The position numbers and the translations under genes are program-made. Source: a virus. From it: a DNA stretch of 20,723 nt. Under the pieces are notes generated by a model. The model saw only the letters and a program-made list of their open reading frames with translations. It did no database searches and was not told the DNA's origin. Location: positions 1 through 20,723 of the IMG/VR virus record IMGVR_UViG_3300012269_000032; one strand, written 5' to 3'. Below are positions 4,252-15,064 of this stretch, piece by piece. Numbering within the stretch: position 1 is the stretch's first letter; every line of letters starts with the position of its first letter.

Positions 4252-4281
4252 GTACCTATTTTGTGCATAACCCTGGGGATA

Positions 4282-4461
4282 TCATTTGGTAGCTGCGTAT
4301 ACCTCCAAGTCGCTCTTCATTCTGCTCTCGGCGGCTTTTATCATGATGTAATGTGTACCGCAGTATGCAGCCGTGGATCTTAAATCCAGTCTCAGTTGCC
4401 CTTCTCGTTTACATACTGTGCAGGTACTCATATCATCTATTACTCGGCTTCTTGTAGCCAT
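4282..4461 (-). CDS. Small zinc-binding-like protein, 59 residues
   Basis: ATG at 4461, stop TGA at 4282-4284. The product has CTVC (Cys14, Cys17) followed by YCGTHY (Cys34, His37), a CX2C...CX2H arrangement typical of small phage zinc-binding proteins, then a helical basic C-terminus. The start lies inside the preceding 28-residue gene in another frame, giving a 22-base overlap. An internal ATG at residue 11 (MSTCTVC) would also keep the zinc ligands. Function is unknown; DNA or protein binding is the usual role of such fingers. It is the last gene before the 4224-4251 promoter. Confidence 0.65.
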   Translation of the reverse strand: MATRSRVIDDMSTCTVCKREGQLRLDLRSTAAYCGTHYIMIKAAESRMKSDLEVYAATK

Positions 4462-4526
4462 ACGATTACTTTAAATAAAATAAACAGTACGACTCCAAAA
4501 AGATATATTGCTATTGCTAGTGTCAT
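4440..4526 (-). CDS. 28-residue single-pass membrane peptide
   Basis: ATG at 4526 overlaps the stop of the upstream gene as ATGA, a standard translational-coupling arrangement. The product is almost entirely one hydrophobic segment (about residues 3-24, AIAIYLFGVVLFILFKVIVW) ending in QEAE, which suits a membrane-inserted micropeptide. Being so short, it could arise by chance in AT-rich DNA, but the exact stop-start overlap and the continuous hydrophobic stretch favour a real gene. No function can be assigned. Confidence 0.5.
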   Translation of the reverse strand: MTLAIAIYLFGVVLFILFKVIVWLQEAE

Positions 4527-4819
4527 GATTGTTGTTCGTTTACTTTTTTGATAATTTGATTATATACTTTTTCGGTCGCGTCTGCATCTGGACATGATTG
4601 TCCGGCACAATAGTCCCCGGTTTCACCAATCTTTACCATCGCGTACTCACCTTCGAACATAAGTGTCCCTTTCTTTGGGTACCACAGAAACTTTCCTGTG
4701 AGGTCTGGGTATGTCAGCCCTAGTTGCCATGGCTGGTACTTCACCACTTTGATCCCCATCGCTTCAAGGAATTCGTAGTCAACTTGCTCGTCGTATTCTG
4801 TTTTAATTATTTCGTTCAT
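4523..4819 (-). CDS. Hypothetical protein, 98 residues
   Basis: Not recognised. The N-terminus is acidic (NEIIKTEYDEQVDYEFLEAMGI), followed by an aromatic beta-like centre (YQPWQLGLTYPDLTGKFLWYPKKGTLMFEGEYAMVKIG), a Cys pair in DYCAGQSCPDAD and a C-terminal helix. The pattern suggests a compact soluble domain. It starts two bases after its upstream neighbour stops, and its stop overlaps the next start (ATGA). Part of the early leftward operon. Confidence 0.75.
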   Translation of the reverse strand: MNEIIKTEYDEQVDYEFLEAMGIKVVKYQPWQLGLTYPDLTGKFLWYPKKGTLMFEGEYAMVKIGETGDYCAGQSCPDADATEKVYNQIIKKVNEQQS

Positions 4820-6119: not shown

Positions 6120-6320
6120 TTATTTTAGTTGATTTTTAAACTCTGTTAATTCGACGTGATTATATTTTATGTAATTTGTCGCGTCTCGCAATGCTGTCAA
6201 TATTTCCCTGTCATGACTGAATACTTTTGGTGTCGCACCTGGTGCCATTACTAGCACTTGCTGTGGTCGCTCTACCATCGAATAAATGCCGCCGATTTTG
6301 ATTGTAATTTCTTTGTTCAT
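6120..6320 (-). CDS. Hypothetical protein, 66 residues
   Basis: Not recognised. A small soluble protein with two beta-like stretches (ITIKIGGIYSMV and QQVLVMAPGATPKVFS) followed by a helix (REILTALRDATNYIKYN). It ends three bases before the exported-protein gene. The start ATG lies two bases after the stop of the zinc-finger frame at 6323-6480, and a GGAG-like stretch (TTTGGAGAC) upstream is one of the few SD-like sequences in the block. Confidence 0.7.
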   Translation of the reverse strand: MNKEITIKIGGIYSMVERPQQVLVMAPGATPKVFSHDREILTALRDATNYIKYNHVELTEFKNQLK

Positions 6321-6322
6321 AA

Positions 6323-6480
6323 TTAGTCTCCAAAGTTAATTCTTTTTTGCTTTGTTAGTAATCTACGGTGGTCGAGGCATACGTGCACCATTCTCCCTTC
6401 ACCGCTAGCTTCGAGATATTTAGCTGGTGCGGTGCACGGTGTCCATTCGCACCGGGTTGGTTTATTTGTTTTTTTGTCAT
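6323..6480 (-). CDS. Small zinc-finger protein reachable only by a -1 slip or stop readthrough
   Basis: A 52-residue frame ending TAA at 6323-6325 carries RCEWTPC (Cys11, Cys16) and HVCLDH (Cys35, His38), a convincing CX4C...CX2H finger with a basic tail. It has no in-frame start codon. The only nearby ATG (6478-6480) reads ATG-ACA-AAA-AAA-C, and a -1 slip on the in-frame A-AAA-AAA heptamer leads straight into the finger; without a slip it gives an unremarkable 41-residue product. The finger frame is also in phase with the clamp-like gene across its TAG stop (6482-6484), so readthrough would fuse the two. A one-base homopolymer error in the assembly is the dull alternative. Confidence 0.55.
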
Positions 6481-6481
6481 A

Positions 6482-6982
6482 CTAGCGATTCATTGGCATT
6501 AATAATGCCTTGGCGGTCTGCACTTTTCCCGGCTCTTCACATTGCGCCGTGATAAATAATGGTTTGTATTTTGTCGTCGGTATTCTCAGTGTCACGGCCT
6601 CGAACGGGTCAAGGTTTTTTAGGATGTCGCAGATTTCAGCTAGAAACCTCGCATTCACTTTGTGTTCGATATACTCCACGTCTTTATCTTCGTTGAGTAT
6701 CATGTCGATATTGGGGTATTTGTCCCCTGACACGGCGGGTTTTACTTTGATATCTTTCCCGTCGATTCGATCCGTCTTTTTTAGTTTTACTTCTTTTTTG
6801 ATGTCGTCCGCAAAATATAATGTCGGTACTTCTTGCTTTTTACCTGTCGCGCTCATCTCGATCAGTCGAAATGAATCAGTGGCGATGGTGCGGTCGCCGT
6901 ATAGTGCGACACATGCTAGTTCTGGTTTGATGCGGTTCTTGTGGGCGATTTTGCCGATGGCAAAGTTGTTTTTGTTGTACAT
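6482..6982 (-). CDS. Compact DnaN-like sliding clamp protein
   Basis: At 166 residues this is less than half a bacterial beta clamp (about 366), yet it carries clamp landmarks in order: LACVALYGDRTIATDSFRLIEM (22-43), like the ATDGHRL region of DnaN domain 2; SGDKYPNIDMIL (85-96), like the GKFPDYRRVLP junction; NARFLAEICDIL (110-121), like the domain 3 helix; and a C-terminal ALLMPMNR, like the MPMRL ending of E. coli DnaN. Domain 1 and parts of the others appear to be missing. It would act as a processivity factor or as a decoy or partner of the host clamp. No DNA polymerase gene lies in the window. It ends in TAG with the frame open beyond. The similarity is by eye. Confidence 0.55.
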   Translation of the reverse strand: MYNKNNFAIGKIAHKNRIKPELACVALYGDRTIATDSFRLIEMSATGKKQEVPTLYFADDIKKEVKLKKTDRIDGKDIKVKPAVSGDKYPNIDMILNEDKDVEYIEHKVNARFLAEICDILKNLDPFEAVTLRIPTTKYKPLFITAQCEEPGKVQTAKALLMPMNR

Positions 6983-6987
6983 GATGA

Positions 6988-7185
6988 TTATTGGTTAGAT
7001 TTCATACTGGTTAATATTTGTTCCCACTGTTTGATGGTGTGAATACCACTAGCGATTTCTCTGACTGCAATACCGTCTCGTCGAAACTGGGTATCTAGCA
7101 GCCGTTGCTTTTGGGCTTTGTTAGCACAAAATACTTTAAATGTGCGTCCGTCTTTAAATGTGATTCTGTATAATGTTGTCTGCAT
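6988..7185 (-). CDS. Hypothetical small basic protein, 65 residues
   Basis: A small basic protein with a beta hairpin-like start (TTLYRITFKDGRTFKVFCANKAQKQRLL) and a C-terminal helix. The start resembles short conserved proteins seen in many phage early regions, but I cannot name a family. Its first 32 bases overlap the end of the upstream 58-residue gene in another frame. Five bases separate its stop from the clamp-like gene, so the two are probably translated from one message. Confidence 0.7.
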   Translation of the reverse strand: MQTTLYRITFKDGRTFKVFCANKAQKQRLLDTQFRRDGIAVREIASGIHTIKQWEQILTSMKSNQ

Positions 7186-7330
7186 GATTTTGTCTGATTA
7201 TTTGTAATAGTTTCTTGTAGTGCTTGCCCGCGCGGTTAATGTTGTGGGGTATACGATTGATCTGGGCTTGGATGCGGTCGCGATCGTAGGGTTGTACGTG
7301 CTGGTAGTATTCGGCTGCTGTGGTGATCAT
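7154..7330 (-). CDS. Hypothetical protein, 58 residues
   Basis: ATG at 7330 overlaps the stop of the upstream 39-residue gene (ATGA), and the frame runs to TAA at 7154-7156. The product (starts MITTAAEYYQHVQPYDRDRI, then RIPHNINRAGKHYKKLLQII) is helical and basic. The stop-start coupling and the filled gap make it a credible gene that length filters would miss. It overlaps the next gene by 32 bases. Function unknown. Confidence 0.6.
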   Translation of the reverse strand: MITTAAEYYQHVQPYDRDRIQAQINRIPHNINRAGKHYKKLLQIIRQNHADNIIQNHI

Positions 7331-7446
7331 AGGTTGTCGATCACACTGTCGATCGCGTCCCTGTATATGTCGTCTTCGATACTGGCAAGGTCGTGCGGTG
7401 ATACGGCGTATAGATGTTGTCGCAATGTCTCTTTGTCGGTGGTCAT
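7327..7446 (-). CDS. Hypothetical acidic micropeptide, 39 residues
   Basis: ATG at 7446 follows the stop of the upstream gene by one base (TAA-T-ATG), the same junction as at 502/504. The product is acidic and helical (TTDKETLRQHLYAVSPHDLASIEDDIYRDAIDSVIDNL). Its stop overlaps the next start. It is short, but both junctions fit the operon pattern. Function unknown. Confidence 0.55.
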   Translation of the reverse strand: MTTDKETLRQHLYAVSPHDLASIEDDIYRDAIDSVIDNL

Positions 7447-7447
7447 A

Positions 7448-7669
7448 TTATTTAAGCATATATAACAAGGTTTCTAATTGCTTGGGATCTTGCTCGCTGG
7501 CGTGGTTTTCGTACTCGTCGGCGATTGTTAGCATGATCGCTTGCTTGTACCCCTCGCATTTGTCAAAGGTGCCACAGTAGTGCTCCATAGCTGCCTCCAG
7601 CTTCTCAAGGTTCTCGTCGTCGTTGCTAATATTGTTTAGCGCGTTTTGTACTTGGTTGATTTGGTTCAT
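7448..7669 (-). CDS. Early protein, 73 residues; paralogue of the 8358-8588 gene
   Basis: An acidic helical protein with paired Cys (YCGTFDKCEG). It aligns without gaps over its core with the product of 8358-8588: about 26 of 45 positions identical, including DEN.E.LE..ME..CG..D.CEG.K.A and YxNHAxEQxP. The two Cys are conserved and may bind metal or form a disulfide. No known family is recognised. The pair reflects a duplication within this phage or its ancestor. Tightly packed on both sides. Confidence 0.8.
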   Translation of the reverse strand: MNQINQVQNALNNISNDDENLEKLEAAMEHYCGTFDKCEGYKQAIMLTIADEYENHASEQDPKQLETLLYMLK

Positions 7670-7673
7670 GGTG

Positions 7674-7826
7674 TTAGTTGATTACTTTAATATTAAGCTG
7701 GCCTCGGTTTTTTAGAATAGCGATGTGCTTGGCGATCCGTTTGGATTTGGTCGCGGGTGTCGTCGCTAGGGTGTCGATCCGTTCTTGGCGGTCTGGGCTG
7801 ATCGATGTGATGGTAGTTGATTGCAT
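7674..7826 (-). CDS. Hypothetical basic protein, 50 residues
   Basis: ATG at 7826, TAA at 7674-7676, four bases before the next gene. The product reads MQSTTITSISPDRQERIDTL and then a basic helix (TKSKRIAKHIAILKNRGQL). The PDRQ motif near the N-terminus also occurs in the 56-residue product at 8200-8370 (TPDRQQ). The basic helical half could contact nucleic acid. Function unknown. Confidence 0.6.
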   Translation of the reverse strand: MQSTTITSISPDRQERIDTLATTPATKSKRIAKHIAILKNRGQLNIKVIN

Positions 7827-7847
7827 GATCTCGGTACGTGTTAATTA

Positions 7848-8189
7848 CTAATTAGGACAATAGAATGCTGTGCTGTCGTCGGCGTGCGCTAGGTATAGAT
7901 TCCCGTGACACATTGTGAAGTCATCCTCGGCGTGTGGTAGTAGTGCGATGCACTGATCGAACTGGGCTGGCGTCAAATAGTAGTCGGGCAATTGGGTGAG
8001 GTAGTGCGCGTGGGTGGCGCAGGTGTGTGCTTGCTGGCGGTCCAGGGCGATGGGTATGATTATGATGACTGCCAGTAGGGTAAGAATAACTAGTGCGGTT
8101 TTGATAAATAATATTTGCCTAGCGGTTTCTTTTTTAAATTGTGCAAGGGTTTTCAATTGTCCGTTCTTTTTAAATACTGGGATTAACAT
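7848..8189 (-). CDS. Single-pass membrane protein with four cysteines, 113 residues
   Basis: A basic cytoplasmic N-terminus (residues 1-25) leads to one strong transmembrane helix (about 28-49, FIKTALVILTLLAVIIIIPIAL), then a soluble domain of about 60 residues with Cys57, Cys80, Cys94 and Cys111, which would suit two disulfides outside the cytoplasm. By the positive-inside rule the C-terminus faces outward. Such early membrane proteins often alter the host envelope or exclude other phages; that is inference. Leader is A/T-rich with no SD. Confidence 0.7.
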   Translation of the reverse strand: MLIPVFKKNGQLKTLAQFKKETARQILFIKTALVILTLLAVIIIIPIALDRQQAHTCATHAHYLTQLPDYYLTPAQFDQCIALLPHAEDDFTMCHGNLYLAHADDSTAFYCPN

Positions 8190-8199
8190 AATGATTGAA

Positions 8200-8370
8200 T
8201 TAATTCGGGTTAGTTAGTGATCGGTCAACAACTTCCTGCATGTACTGATAATCGACGTGGGGCGAGTGTTGGTTGATCTGCATGATTTTGATCTCCTTGG
8301 CTACGTTCTCTTGTCGCACAACGGCTATATACTGTTGTCGATCTGGTGTCACTGCATTTATTGTAGGCAT
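8200..8370 (-). CDS. Hypothetical protein, 56 residues
   Basis: ATG at 8370, TAA at 8200-8202, overlapping the end of the upstream 76-residue gene by 13 bases. The product begins MPTINAVTPDRQQYIAVVRQ and is helical throughout. The TPDRQ motif is shared with the 50-residue product at 7674-7826. The overlapping longer frame at 8225-8491 runs over the upstream gene and lacks these features. Function unknown. Confidence 0.6.
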   Translation of the reverse strand: MPTINAVTPDRQQYIAVVRQENVAKEIKIMQINQHSPHVDYQYMQEVVDRSLTNPN

Positions 8371-8588
8371 AGAATTTTTTTAAGTTCGATAATATCGTCG
8401 GGGCTTTGTTCGTCGGCATGGTTCGTATACTGATCTTCAATGGTTTTTCGTAGGGCATACTTGAATCCCTCGCAGATATCATAGTTGCCACAAAAATATT
8501 CCATTCCCTTTTCTAGTAGTTCGATATTCTCGTCGCAACTTTCAATGTCGTCGATCGCTTCGAGTAAGTCTTCAATTTCTTTTGTCAT
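8358..8588 (-). CDS. Early protein, 76 residues; paralogue of the 7448-7669 gene
   Basis: An acidic helical protein with CGNYDICEG, the same Cys spacing as the 73-residue paralogue. Shared features run from DEN (residues 19-21) through NHADEQSP. It ends LKKILCLQ. Being the longer and more upstream copy, it may be the parent, but direction cannot be decided from one genome. Leader AATAATCACT before ATG, without SD. Confidence 0.8.
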   Translation of the reverse strand: MTKEIEDLLEAIDDIESCDENIELLEKGMEYFCGNYDICEGFKYALRKTIEDQYTNHADEQSPDDIIELKKILCLQ

Positions 8589-8599
8589 AGTGATTATTA

Positions 8600-8974
8600 T
8601 TAGAATTGCATAACTAGAATACTTTTAAGTGGGTCGCGGTGAGCGGTGTCACCTATTACAATATTTTCAACGTCGAGCACGGTTGTGTTATCTTCGAGCC
8701 ATTCTCGGGCTTGCTCTTCAGTAGTTATTTTTTGATCGTCGGGCAAGTCACTATCGTCACCGTGGTGTTGTGTATACACTTCAAGTGCATTGTCGTATTC
8801 GCTCCAGTCACAACGAATTGCAACGTGGTCAAGTTCGATATCTTCACCTATGTCGTCGGACAAATTCTCGTAGTAGTCAAACAGTGCCTTGGTTGCACCA
8901 TATGTCCAGTGTGCATATTCGTCAGCTAGTAGCACGTTAGTGAATCGCCATTCGTTTACAGTTTCTTTAATCAT
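8600..8974 (-). CDS. Conserved phage-type acidic protein, 124 residues
   Basis: The segment ALFDYYENLSDDIGEDIELDHVAIRCDWSEYDNALEVY (about residues 29-66) resembles a small protein type common in phages and plasmids (pattern L.DY.E...D.GE.IELD.IA..C..SEY), whose function I do not know. A second region contains TEEQAREWLEDNTTVL, the usual companion of that pattern. The protein is strongly acidic. Early position fits a host-takeover or anti-defence accessory role, but nothing in the sequence proves it. Confidence 0.75.
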   Translation of the reverse strand: MIKETVNEWRFTNVLLADEYAHWTYGATKALFDYYENLSDDIGEDIELDHVAIRCDWSEYDNALEVYTQHHGDDSDLPDDQKITTEEQAREWLEDNTTVLDVENIVIGDTAHRDPLKSILVMQF

Positions 8975-11090: not shown

Positions 11091-11270
11091 TTAGTTTGAT
11101 AGATATACAACGGCCAGCACGGTTGCGACGATGGTCACGATTAGTGCACGGGTTGCAATGTCTTTCAATTCTGATACTGCTTTACTTTGTCGGTACGATT
11201 GTATCGCGTGGGCTTTACTTTTTGTCAGTTTGATATTTTTTGACGGTTTTCCGTCGATGTAATGAATCAT
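11091..11270 (-). CDS. Tail-anchored membrane protein, 59 residues
   Basis: ATG at 11270, TAA at 11091-11093. A basic N-terminal part (MIHYIDGKPSKNIKLTKSKA) is followed by a C-terminal hydrophobic helix (about residues 42-57, ALIVTIVATVLAVVYL) ending SN. The gene fills an otherwise unexplained gap and keeps the orientation and spacing of the operon. Short tail-anchored early proteins can modify the host membrane; function here is unknown. Confidence 0.6.
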   Translation of the reverse strand: MIHYIDGKPSKNIKLTKSKAHAIQSYRQSKAVSELKDIATRALIVTIVATVLAVVYLSN

Positions 11271-11370
11271 AATAATGATTATGTTGTGGCATTTGGTCGG
11301 TTGTAGTTACTTTTTGTCTACTGTCGATGCCGTTTTATAATGTGCGAAACGATACATATATATGAGTTGG

Positions 11371-11403
11371 TACGTGGCTCTTATAATTTGATTACGTGGC
11401 TCT
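11371..11403. repeat. 11-bp direct repeat TACGTGGCTCT, 22 bp apart
   Basis: Copies at 11371-11381 and 11393-11403, two helical turns apart, with an A/T-rich TTATAA-containing spacer between. They lie between the 69-residue gene and the left arm of the 27-bp inverted repeat. Spacing on one face of the helix suits a dimeric protein site, possibly around an internal leftward promoter. No regulator is identified. Confidence 0.6.
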
Positions 11404-11408
11404 GTACT

Positions 11409-11618
11409 CTATTCGATAATACCGCAAGCTTGGTTGAATCGTGTAACATCAAAATTTGGGTTTTCTGTTACAAAATAACTTGCTAGTGCTATAACGGTTT
11501 TATCGTACGGCAAAACGTGGGCAATTGTGCCGTTTTGCTTTTCGACGGTTGTGGCGTTGTCCTTGATAATTTGGGCAATGGCTACAAAGTTTTTTCTTGT
11601 CATATGTTTTTTATACAT
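11409..11618 (-). CDS. Small conserved phage/plasmid-type protein, 69 residues
   Basis: The product resembles a short family of unknown function found in phages, plasmids and many bacteria: MTRKNFVAIAQIIKDN at the start, ALASYFVTENPNFDVTRFNQACG at the end (pattern MTRK.F..IA..I...., A...A.....NP.FD..RF..ACG). Those proteins usually start at the MTRK methionine, here residue 6, so the true start may be 11603. It is the first gene of the leftward operon and is bracketed by the 27-bp inverted repeat, which makes it a possible separately acquired cassette. Confidence 0.75.
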   Translation of the reverse strand: MYKKHMTRKNFVAIAQIIKDNATTVEKQNGTIAHVLPYDKTVIALASYFVTENPNFDVTRFNQACGIIE

Positions 11619-11666
11619 TAGTTGATTGGTTTACCAACTCATATATATGTATCGTTTCAATGTACT

Positions 11667-11686
11667 AGTCAGATGTCTTTCTGACT
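11667..11686. promoter_or_regulatory. Inverted repeat at the early transcription start
   Basis: AGTCAG (11667-11672) and CTGACT (11681-11686) form a perfect 6-bp inverted repeat with an 8-base centre. It begins where transcription from the 11694-11722 promoter should start, so it is either an operator or a 5' stem protecting the early mRNA. Confidence 0.45.
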
Positions 11687-11693
11687 TATTTAT

Positions 11694-11722
11694 ATACTAT
11701 CATATGTCACTGTCGCTGTCAA
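11694..11722 (-). promoter_or_regulatory. Main leftward early promoter
   Basis: On the minus strand a perfect -35 TTGACA (11717-11722), a 17-base spacer and a -10 TAGTAT (11694-11699) preceded by TGA. Transcription would start near 11687 and read all leftward genes. Its core GACAGTGACATATGATAGTATA recurs with one substitution and a three-base gap in the promoter at 4224-4251, so both probably answer to the same polymerase or regulator. Confidence 0.65.
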
Positions 11723-11993
11723 ATACTTATACCCAGTATTTATGGTTGCGCGATGTTTTTATATTATGTCAAGTTTATGATATTTGGGGTGTATTTTGGC
11801 TATAAGGTATGTTTTTTTAAAAAGCTATAAGGTAGGGTCTAGGGTAGGTTTTTTTTAGGGGTCTTGTGATAGGCGAGGTTGGTAGGCCCCTAGAGAAAAT
11901 CGATCAAATATACCCTTTTGTACCCTCTTTTATATTATGCCACACCAAAAAACGGTGGTCAAAAAAAATCAATATGGCTTAAAATAAGGTTTA

Positions 11994-12042
11994 TTGACGG
12001 GGCACAAGATTCATGACATAACTCGTGCCCCACTCGTGCCCC
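11994..12042 (+). promoter_or_regulatory. Promoter/operator-like module 1
   Basis: TTGACG (11994-11999), a 17-base spacer and CATAAC (12017-12022) preceded by TGA, a weak extended -10. Inverted arms GGGGCAC (11999-12005) and GTGCCCC (12025-12031) flank the spacer and -10. ACTCGTGCCCC is then repeated head-to-tail (12021-12031 and 12032-12042). A repressor bound to the arms would block the promoter. Module 2 at 12229 has the same layout. Confidence 0.5.
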
Positions 12043-12081
12043 GGCCATTCTGGCCTATTCTATAAGGTTATTTTCCTCCTC

Positions 12082-12182
12082 GGGGCACGTGGGCACAAGA
12101 TTTTAAAAAAAATTAGTATTTCACTTTTTTGATTTTGTTTTACGACAAACGACTTTTTGGCTTTTTCGTGCCCACGTGCCCC
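12082..12182. repeat. Perfect 15-bp inverted repeat, GGGGCACGTGGGCAC
   Basis: Arms at 12082-12096 and 12168-12182 are exact reverse complements, 71 bases apart. Each arm contains the GGGGCAC unit used in the two flanking promoter-like modules plus a central CACGTG. The intervening bases are A/T-rich. Possible roles are paired operators joined by DNA looping, or an origin element with an unwinding region between. Confidence 0.75.
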
Positions 12183-12228
12183 ATTTGCTAGCTGTTTGGT
12201 GTATAGCTTGACAGAATCACTGTTTTAT

Positions 12229-12267
12229 TTGACGGGGCATAAGATGTGTGGTAAATAAGTTGTGCCC
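12229..12267 (+). promoter_or_regulatory. Promoter/operator-like module 2
   Basis: TTGACG (12229-12234), a 17-base spacer and TAAATA (12252-12257) preceded by TGG. GGGGCATAA (12234-12242) and TTGTGCCC (12260-12267) form an imperfect inverted repeat in the same relative places as in module 1. The two modules share TTGACGGGGCA, AAGAT and TAA.T.GTGCCC, so they are diverged copies about 235 bases apart. The -10 is weak, so activity is uncertain. Confidence 0.45.
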
Positions 12268-12311
12268 TCATGATTTTAAGAAATGTCAATAGCTAGAAAT
12301 TTTTATAAGGT

Positions 12312-12380: not shown

Positions 12381-12495
12381 AGACTTTTCACTTTCTTTTT
12401 TTAAATTTTAAAAACTAAAAATAAAGCGGTAGGGGGCTACCCCTATCCAGGTACCCCGGGTGTGTTACTAAGAAAGGGTCCCCCTCCCACACACA

Positions 12496-12606
12496 GGACA
12501 GATATATATTTTAGTGAACCAGGACGGATATATATTTTAGTGAACCATGACAATGATCCTGGACAGATATATTTTAGTGATCCAGGACAGATATATTTAT
12601 TCACTA
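12496..12606. repeat. Four iteron-like 24-26-bp repeats
   Basis: Copies begin at 12496, 12522, 12561 and 12585. The unit is GGACAGATATATATTTTAG followed by TGAACCA. The first two are 26 bases and differ at one position, the third is shorter (24) with TGATCCA, and the fourth diverges after GATATATTTA. Thirteen bases separate copies 2 and 3; the others abut. The layout suits an iteron origin or an operator array in front of the late genes. Confidence 0.8.
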
Positions 12607-13273: not shown

Positions 13274-15064
13274 ATGGTTGATGTTCACTTTCAAAAGAAG
13301 CATAACGATTCGCTGATCCAGGCGCTGATTGCAAATCCCGATCTTATTGATGACAAGCGGTGGCGGATTGATAACCTGTATTGGATTATTACGAAGTCGG
13401 GGACAAAAGAGTTGTTTGCGATGAACCGGGCGCAACGGCATTTTTTTGAAAACTATCTTATTAAATCGGGTGAGGTGTATTACCGACACTGTGTGCTCAA
13501 AGCCAGGCAGCTCGGATTCACTACGTTTATTGACTTGTGGATTCTTGATGAGATTTTGTTTAACACCAACCGTGAAGGATTGATTATCGCGCACACGCAG
13601 AAAGACGCGACTGAGATTTTTGATCGAAAGATTGATTATGCGATTCGAAACATGTGTGACGAGATTAAACAAGGAGCTTTTAAGTTGGTGAAAAACTCAG
13701 CGAAAAAGATTCAGGTGGTGGTGGACTATGGACCGGAAGAAGGTTCCACTTCAAGTATCAATGTGTCGGGGTCCGCTCGCTCGGGTACGTTTTACTACGT
13801 GCACATTTCTGAGTTTGCGAAACTGTGTGCGACTTACCCGCGAGTAGCTGCTGAAGTAGAAACTGGTACATTCCCTGCGGTCCCGTTTGATGGATTTATT
13901 TTTATTGAGTCAACTGCTGAAGGTATGGCTGGTCGGTTTTATGAAATTTTCACCGAGGGATGGCGTAATAAAGACACGATAACACCCATGAAATCAAGAG
14001 TGATGTTTATGGCTCACTTCTATAACTGGCAGTACGACGATTCGGAAATGCTGAAGATCACGGAGACGATCCCAACGAAAGAGATGGAGCTGTGTGAGAT
14101 TGACTGGGGTGAGTATAAAGAACAGCACAAACTCACTGATATTGAAATCACGTATTACTACATGAAGTGGTTGCAGATGGGAGGAAAAAACTCGAGTGAT
14201 GCGATTCACAAATTGCACCAGGAGTTTCCCACTACTCCAGAAGAAGCTTTCTTGTCTACCGGGCAAACTTATTTCCCGACCGCGCAAGTATTTGAAATGA
14301 TGCAGACAGCAGTATCTGGGACCAAAGGGGAACTAAGCGCAAACGAAAAAGGGGAAGTTTCTTTCCAGGAATTTTCAGCGGGGGATCTGGAAATATTTGA
14401 AATGCCACAAGACGGTCAGCGATATATCATCGGGGGCGATACCGCGGAAGGACTCGCTCACGGAGACAGTCAGATTTTGTATGTGTTGAAACATAAGACG
14501 GAGGAGTGTGTTGCTGTGTATAAATCAAACGTGCCACCAGATGAGTTTATCGGTGTTGCTTATAACGTCGGTAAATTTTTCAACTGGGCGCTACTTGCAG
14601 TTGAGTCAAACAAAGACGGGCTGTGGGTAAACGATGGGCTTGATAAAATGGGCTACGTGAATTTGTACTACCGAAAGTCGTTTGATGACATTACAAAAAA
14701 TGTCACAAAATTCTTTGGATGGAAAACCACTAGTGCAACCAGACCATTTGCGCTCGCGGCACTCAAGGCGGTGTTTCTCCGGAAGAAGACAGGATTTCCT
14801 CAAGCTATTTTGTCTGAGATGATTACGTTTCTTCGAAATGCGAAAGGAAAGCCGGAAGCATTGGCTGGTAAAAATGACGACGTAGTTATGGCGGCTTCAA
14901 TTGCGTATGCGGTTATGCAAGAACAAGGCGAGTATCAAACGACAACTTCTGACGAATCGTTTTCGATGACAAAAGCGATGTTTGGTGAAAATCAAAATGC
15001 TACAATGCCAGGAGCACCTCAACAACCAAGAAGTGAATCAACCGCGGGGGTCAGAGAATTATGA
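13274..15064 (+). CDS. terL: Terminase large subunit (packaging ATPase and nuclease)
   Basis: The 596-residue packaging motor. ATPase half: a Walker A-like KARQLGFTT (residues 76-84, the degenerate form usual in TerL), Walker B YVHISEFA (175-182) and the coupling motif FIESTAEG (210-217). Nuclease half (RNase H fold): Asp389 in IIGGDTAEG, Glu444 in LLAVESNKDG and Asp535/536 in GKNDDVVMAA, the expected acidic triad. It cuts concatemeric DNA and pumps it into the prohead. The start lies one base after the terS stop (TAA-T-ATG), and the stop overlaps the next start (ATGA). Confidence 0.95.
   Translation: MVDVHFQKKHNDSLIQALIANPDLIDDKRWRIDNLYWIITKSGTKELFAMNRAQRHFFENYLIKSGEVYYRHCVLKARQLGFTTFIDLWILDEILFNTNREGLIIAHTQKDATEIFDRKIDYAIRNMCDEIKQGAFKLVKNSAKKIQVVVDYGPEEGSTSSINVSGSARSGTFYYVHISEFAKLCATYPRVAAEVETGTFPAVPFDGFIFIESTAEGMAGRFYEIFTEGWRNKDTITPMKSRVMFMAHFYNWQYDDSEMLKITETIPTKEMELCEIDWGEYKEQHKLTDIEITYYYMKWLQMGGKNSSDAIHKLHQEFPTTPEEAFLSTGQTYFPTAQVFEMMQTAVSGTKGELSANEKGEVSFQEFSAGDLEIFEMPQDGQRYIIGGDTAEGLAHGDSQILYVLKHKTEECVAVYKSNVPPDEFIGVAYNVGKFFNWALLAVESNKDGLWVNDGLDKMGYVNLYYRKSFDDITKNVTKFFGWKTTSATRPFALAALKAVFLRKKTGFPQAILSEMITFLRNAKGKPEALAGKNDDVVMAASIAYAVMQEQGEYQTTTSDESFSMTKAMFGENQNATMPGAPQQPRSESTAGVREL

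Follow-up and report, generated by a model that had tools for sequence, protein, structure and literature searches.

We describe a perfect inverted repeat of 27 bp that encloses the first gene of the early operon in a small uncultured phage group, and which, judged from its sequence, we tentatively read as a long-range stem closing that cistron in the early mRNA, most likely serving in RNase III-type processing or in protection (probability roughly 45%). The window, that is, the whole stretch of DNA analysed, is a 20.7-kb virus record (20,723 nucleotides), and a 42.8-kb contig contains the identical sequence. The group that carries the arms has two members, the window phage and a contig referred to here as L003. 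The early genes lie on the minus strand behind a promoter, and the enclosed gene is indeed the first of them, as the original prediction had proposed. Directly downstream of the promoter is a hairpin, which 8 nt separate from the 5' arm; the enclosed gene follows, then, after a further 36 nt, the 3' arm, and finally the gene for a small membrane protein. The coordinates are listed below.

11694 to 11722, minus strand: early promoter, TTGACA-17-TAGTAT with an extended -10 TG (consensus scan; close variants of TTGACAGCGACAGCGACAT lie upstream of the early operon in relatives)
11667 to 11686, minus strand: hairpin where the early mRNA is predicted to have its 5' end, 7 bp with a hexaloop (fold; compensatory change in L003)
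11659 to 11665, no strand: AATGTAC, right copy of a possible 7-nt target duplication, 6/7 (sequence; chance 0.5 to 0.9%)
11632 to 11658, minus strand: 5' arm of the inverted repeat, in the mRNA leader (27/27 match, L003 comparison, fold)
11409 to 11603, minus strand: enclosed gene, 64 amino acids, three predicted helices (dN/dS and start site from L003; PHROG match; model)
11346 to 11372, minus strand: 3' arm of the inverted repeat, 36 nt past the stop codon (27/27 match, L003 comparison, fold)
11339 to 11345, no strand: AATGTGC, left copy of the possible 7-nt target duplication, 6/7 (sequence; chance 0.5 to 0.9%)
11091 to 11270, minus strand: next gene, small membrane protein, 59 amino acids (tblastn homologues in L003, L018, L015, and L016)

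The two arms are complementary at all 27 positions and are separated by 259 nt around one early gene of 64 codons, and the perfect repeat recognized in the original prediction is thus borne out far above chance. When the window was shuffled 40 times with its dinucleotides preserved, no perfect inverted repeat at any distance exceeded 18 bp, the longest found; in 20 shuffles with the span held to at most 1 kb, the longest was 15 bp. Apart from L003, none of 60 related and comparison loci (~833 kb) held another inverted repeat of at least 25 bp with a gap of 100 to 700 nt; the next longest in this set (16 to 24 bp) fall mostly in origin-like arrays of the control region. The shuffles and the ~833 kb of phage contigs together rule out a chance palindrome. 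Among 2.9 million viral contigs, the exact 27-mer occurs only in the window phage and L003; it is absent from the genomes of 85,000 species, and the 16-mer core of the arm gave no further paired copies. These 27-mer and 16-mer scans revealed no instance of the same arms around other genes, for which the original prediction had proposed to look. A separate observation concerns the distant relative L034, in which a 17-bp perfect inverted repeat, ATTTACTAAGGGTAAAT, with a gap of 263 nt exactly frames one cistron (positions 4266 to 4562) for an Acb2/Tad1-type sponge (PF24729), of which the L009 homologue is without arms. Each L034 arm by itself forms a 6-bp hairpin, and this repeat may be a second case or may lie near chance.

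L003 is a 4.26-kb contig from a different sample with 92.7% identity to the window over 11091 to 11735, and both of its arms match those of the window letter for letter. None of the 54 arm positions differs between the two phages, as opposed to 22 of the 216 other non-coding sites between the promoter and the membrane gene (Fisher p 0.006), at a dS of 0.22 for the enclosed gene and 0.25 for the membrane gene. These figures support the earlier suggestion that the arms are actively maintained. They also bear on the view that the arms are a functionless relic, either a one-off inverted duplication or an assembly palindrome. A single template-switch step could duplicate leader sequence in inverted form, which counts for a relic, but the persistence of unchanged arms at this dS in a separately assembled contig largely refutes it: at 20% divergence, the probability of no change at 54 sites is ~6e-6, or 0.002 if homogenisation of the arms leaves 27 sites to count. 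We consider such a relic very improbable, and an assembly artefact in particular is ruled out by the diverged, separately assembled L003 with both arms unchanged.

The arms are invariant in both members and therefore offer no covariation; the neighbouring 5' hairpin, in contrast, covaries at one pair. The T-A pair at 11684/11669 is C-G in L003, a compensatory change on both sides of the pair, which indicates that the RNA-level structure of the leader is under selection. Hairpins of unlike sequence directly behind the promoter also open the early mRNAs of L011, L022, and L024, in addition to those of the window phage and L003; no such hairpin was seen in L034 or at one promoter of the L009 contig. 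A further observation from the comparison with L003 is that dS is 0.22 to 0.25 in the early block (11091 to 11735) and 1.39 in the terminase gene (13274 to 15061), and from this difference we conclude that both phages are mosaic, the early block being the part that they have shared more recently, with the exchange point predicted to be located somewhere between ~12300 and 13255.

Both arms are untranslated and lie downstream of the early promoter, which is the basis for placing them in the early transcript. Transcription would start at about 11687, giving an RNA with the 5' hairpin, the 5' arm, the small gene, and the 3' arm, and in the cell the arms would anneal to a 27-bp duplex, closing a loop of ~260 nt that contains the whole cistron and leaves its start codon free. 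In folds of 600-nt transcripts, the mean probability of arm pairing is 0.99 for the window and 0.98 for L003, and the start region is predicted to be mostly unpaired (0.71 and 0.77, respectively). The arm duplex by itself has a predicted energy of -40 kcal/mol, and scrambling one arm costs about 14 to 20 kcal/mol; the MFE z-scores of -7.9 and -9.6 are largely accounted for by the arms alone. Since neither arm overlaps the coding region, translation within the loop could proceed without melting the stem. The duplex would most likely be the site of a double-strand RNase (RNase III-type), in which case the first cistron would be cut from the operon and the downstream mRNA would gain a new 5' end; alternatively, it could clamp the ends of the cistron against exonucleases.

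There are precedents for such duplexes in bacteria: RNase III of Bacillus subtilis cleaves long-range mRNA duplexes of 10 to 36 bp whose sites lie as much as 505 nt apart (PMC11780869), and a duplex between the 5' and 3' UTRs of icaR in Staphylococcus aureus is an RNase III substrate (PMC3868564). By its predicted pairing, the phage element falls within the B. subtilis ranges, with 27 bp, 259 nt, and both arms in one transcript; it differs in that its duplex is perfect and frames exactly one cistron, and its cleavage is putative. As in icaR, the 5' leader is predicted to pair with sequence past the stop codon of the same cistron. However, translation of icaR is blocked because the pairing includes its Shine-Dalgarno region, whereas the phage start is predicted to stay open, the phage duplex is longer, and the phage cistron is part of an operon. 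The predicted pairing, taken together with these two precedents, makes a conserved closing stem, processing or protective, the most economical function for the arms. The original prediction had offered three options, namely, a non-autonomous cassette, an invertible segment, and a stem closing the cistron into a loop; the last is the best supported, its function being inferred. Pre-rRNAs likewise have long-range processing stems, formed by inverted repeats around the RNA segment to be released. The phage arms resemble these in enclosing a segment but frame a protein-coding cistron and have no sequence relation to them.

Several points weigh against the mRNA stem. Strict identity of the arms would fit a protein-binding or recombination site equally well, the group has only two members and its relatives manage without arms, and insertion accounts better for the 7-nt direct repeats at the ends. 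No phage RNase III of the families searched was found in the 42.8-kb record, so that a host enzyme would be needed. Searches against known RNA families returned sub-threshold chance matches only. We also considered a conserved plus-strand promoter, TTGTCT-16-TATAAT (11314 to 11341), from which an antisense RNA would start in the 3' arm; this candidate was rejected, as such promoter-like sites are no commoner than in shuffles.

In more distant relatives, the promoter is shared and the arms are absent. Comparable arms around an early gene were found in none of the terminase relatives (L009, L011 to L018, and L030 to L044), the unlike case of L034 aside, with several of these contigs stopping short of the early operon. 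In L009 and L034, the first gene past the promoter leader is a small membrane gene, which we equated with that at 11270 to 11091 by position and type. The enclosed gene has homologues downstream of the membrane gene in L009, L011, and L015, from which it follows that the enclosed gene occupies an unusual place in the window phage. No arms surround the enclosed-gene homologues in L009, L011, and L015 or in seven other phages. The L009 contig has one further feature of note, an intein-like insert in its large terminase gene (6166 to 8799); the insert spans ~280 codons, and CFVKGTM and VHNC mark its start and end, respectively.

This gene order bears on a second explanation, in which the enclosed gene is a passenger between 27-bp terminal inverted repeats that was inserted into the early leader with duplication of ~7 bp and is mobile only with a transposase supplied in trans, as in a mobile insertion cassette. 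The original prediction had pointed to AATGT near both outer ends, and the match is stronger than claimed: AATGTGC and AATGTAC abut the arms exactly and agree at 6 of 7 positions, which is the geometry of a target duplication and is reached by 0.5 to 0.9% of random position pairs (a chance of about 0.5 to 1%). These flanks, together with the different gene order, make insertion of a cassette between the leader and the membrane gene a plausible account of origin. On the other hand, the 27-mer is confined to the window phage and L003 and lies at the same site in both, and a dead insertion would not hold both ends unchanged at a dS of 0.22. A search of the 42.8-kb record for rve and DDE_Tnp_1 transposases was negative. 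Elements of this class, such as the MICE of pAC3 (PMC5444012) and MITEAba12 (PMC6382973), share with the phage element a single gene, perfect terminal inverted repeats of 20 to 30 bp (here 27/27), TSD-like flanks, and the lack of a transposase inside. The phage element differs in its imperfect TSD and in its ends, strictly conserved at one site, neither copies elsewhere nor an autonomous element with the same ends was found in the viral and genome collections, and no related transposase of the families searched was detected. What stands of the proposed non-autonomous cassette is thus its possible role as the origin of an element that now may work as RNA; as an account of the present element we regard it as doubtful. 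The fuller scenario, in which the transposon-like end pair of a captured cassette has become a conserved 27-bp stem that releases or protects the first cistron as a looped message, seems to us quite unlikely.

It is also conceivable, but in our view unlikely, that the arms are two opposed sites for a DNA-binding protein or for a host site-specific recombinase, as in an Xer-like pdif module or an invertible segment. A length of 27 bp would suit a recombinase core site, each arm contains the palindrome CATATATATG (internal dyad p 0.05), and a constraint on sequence in addition to pairing is in keeping with a protein site. However, all of the few contigs that hold the arms have them in a single orientation, no integrase or resolvase domain (PF00589 and PF00239) was detected in the 42.8-kb record, and the enclosed gene has a dN of 0 and is in phase with the early promoter. 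To our knowledge, the arms have no resemblance to the half-sites of dif (XerC 11 bp, 6 bp, XerD 11 bp), which also counts against this explanation. An invertible segment is therefore not supported, given the one orientation and the lack of a detectable tyrosine or serine recombinase. In pdif modules, a gene or gene pair lies between short, oppositely oriented sites (PMC7399989, PMC7885321); the phage arms are similar in length and likewise opposed, but they are in a phage, and TSD-like flanks are not expected for pdif. The mRNA stem remains the reading that we prefer.

The start codon of the enclosed gene is the ATG at 11603, giving 64 codons, because an in-frame ATG at 11618 reads ATA in L003. 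Between the two phages, the gene has a dN of 0 at the dS given above. The protein it encodes resembles phrog_19432 weakly (E 0.07; the L009 homologue, E 5e-5), has no Pfam match and no PDB relative, and is modelled as a small protein of three helices with a mean pLDDT of 77. Unrelated phages encode homologues (that of Mycobacterium phage Predator is a weak one), and none was found in a collection of 72,556 plasmids; of the proposal that this gene type moves between phages and plasmids, the phage part is in line with these homologues, and the plasmid part finds no support in that collection. The genome collection contributed a single relative, on a Dehalococcoidia MAG contig that is possibly misbinned. 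A plus-strand ORF at 11340 to 11486 is open in L003 as well; coding evidence for it was not found, and it was set aside.

Other sequence features of the region deserve mention in their own right. The early genes of the window from 11603 to 2927 lack Shine-Dalgarno sequences, and A/T-rich words precede their starts, for example, AACTAATNNN-ATG. The arm core, CATATATATG, doubles as start-codon context for the L003 membrane gene and the second gene of L013. Between the early promoter and the small terminase gene is a control region (window positions 11994 to 12303) composed of inverted repeats of one word, which varies by phage (GGGGCACAAG, GGAGCATAAG, GGGACACAAGG, GGGGCATAAGG, and others) in a layout that is constant in L003, L009, L011, L013 to L016, L018, and L034. 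By their sequence, these repeats look like an origin or an initiator-binding array. Immediately upstream of the small terminase gene, at 12494 to 12601, the window contains degenerate tandem-like CAGGACAGATATATATTTTAGTGAAC repeats.

In summary, the repeat is real, maintained, and unusual in its anatomy, and its novelty is that a conserved, putative long-range stem frames a single early phage cistron, as a variant of an already known kind of RNA element; a limited literature search turned up no phage operon in which a perfect conserved stem frames exactly the first gene. Strong purifying selection, on the protein (dN of 0) as well as on the arms, suggests that it is important for the phage how much of this small protein is made, or when. 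In B. subtilis, recent work has shown that RNase III is guided by long-range mRNA duplexes, and if the interpretation given here is true, the phage stem would be a compact means of separating the fate of one early gene from that of its operon and would offer a simple design for looped bacterial messages.
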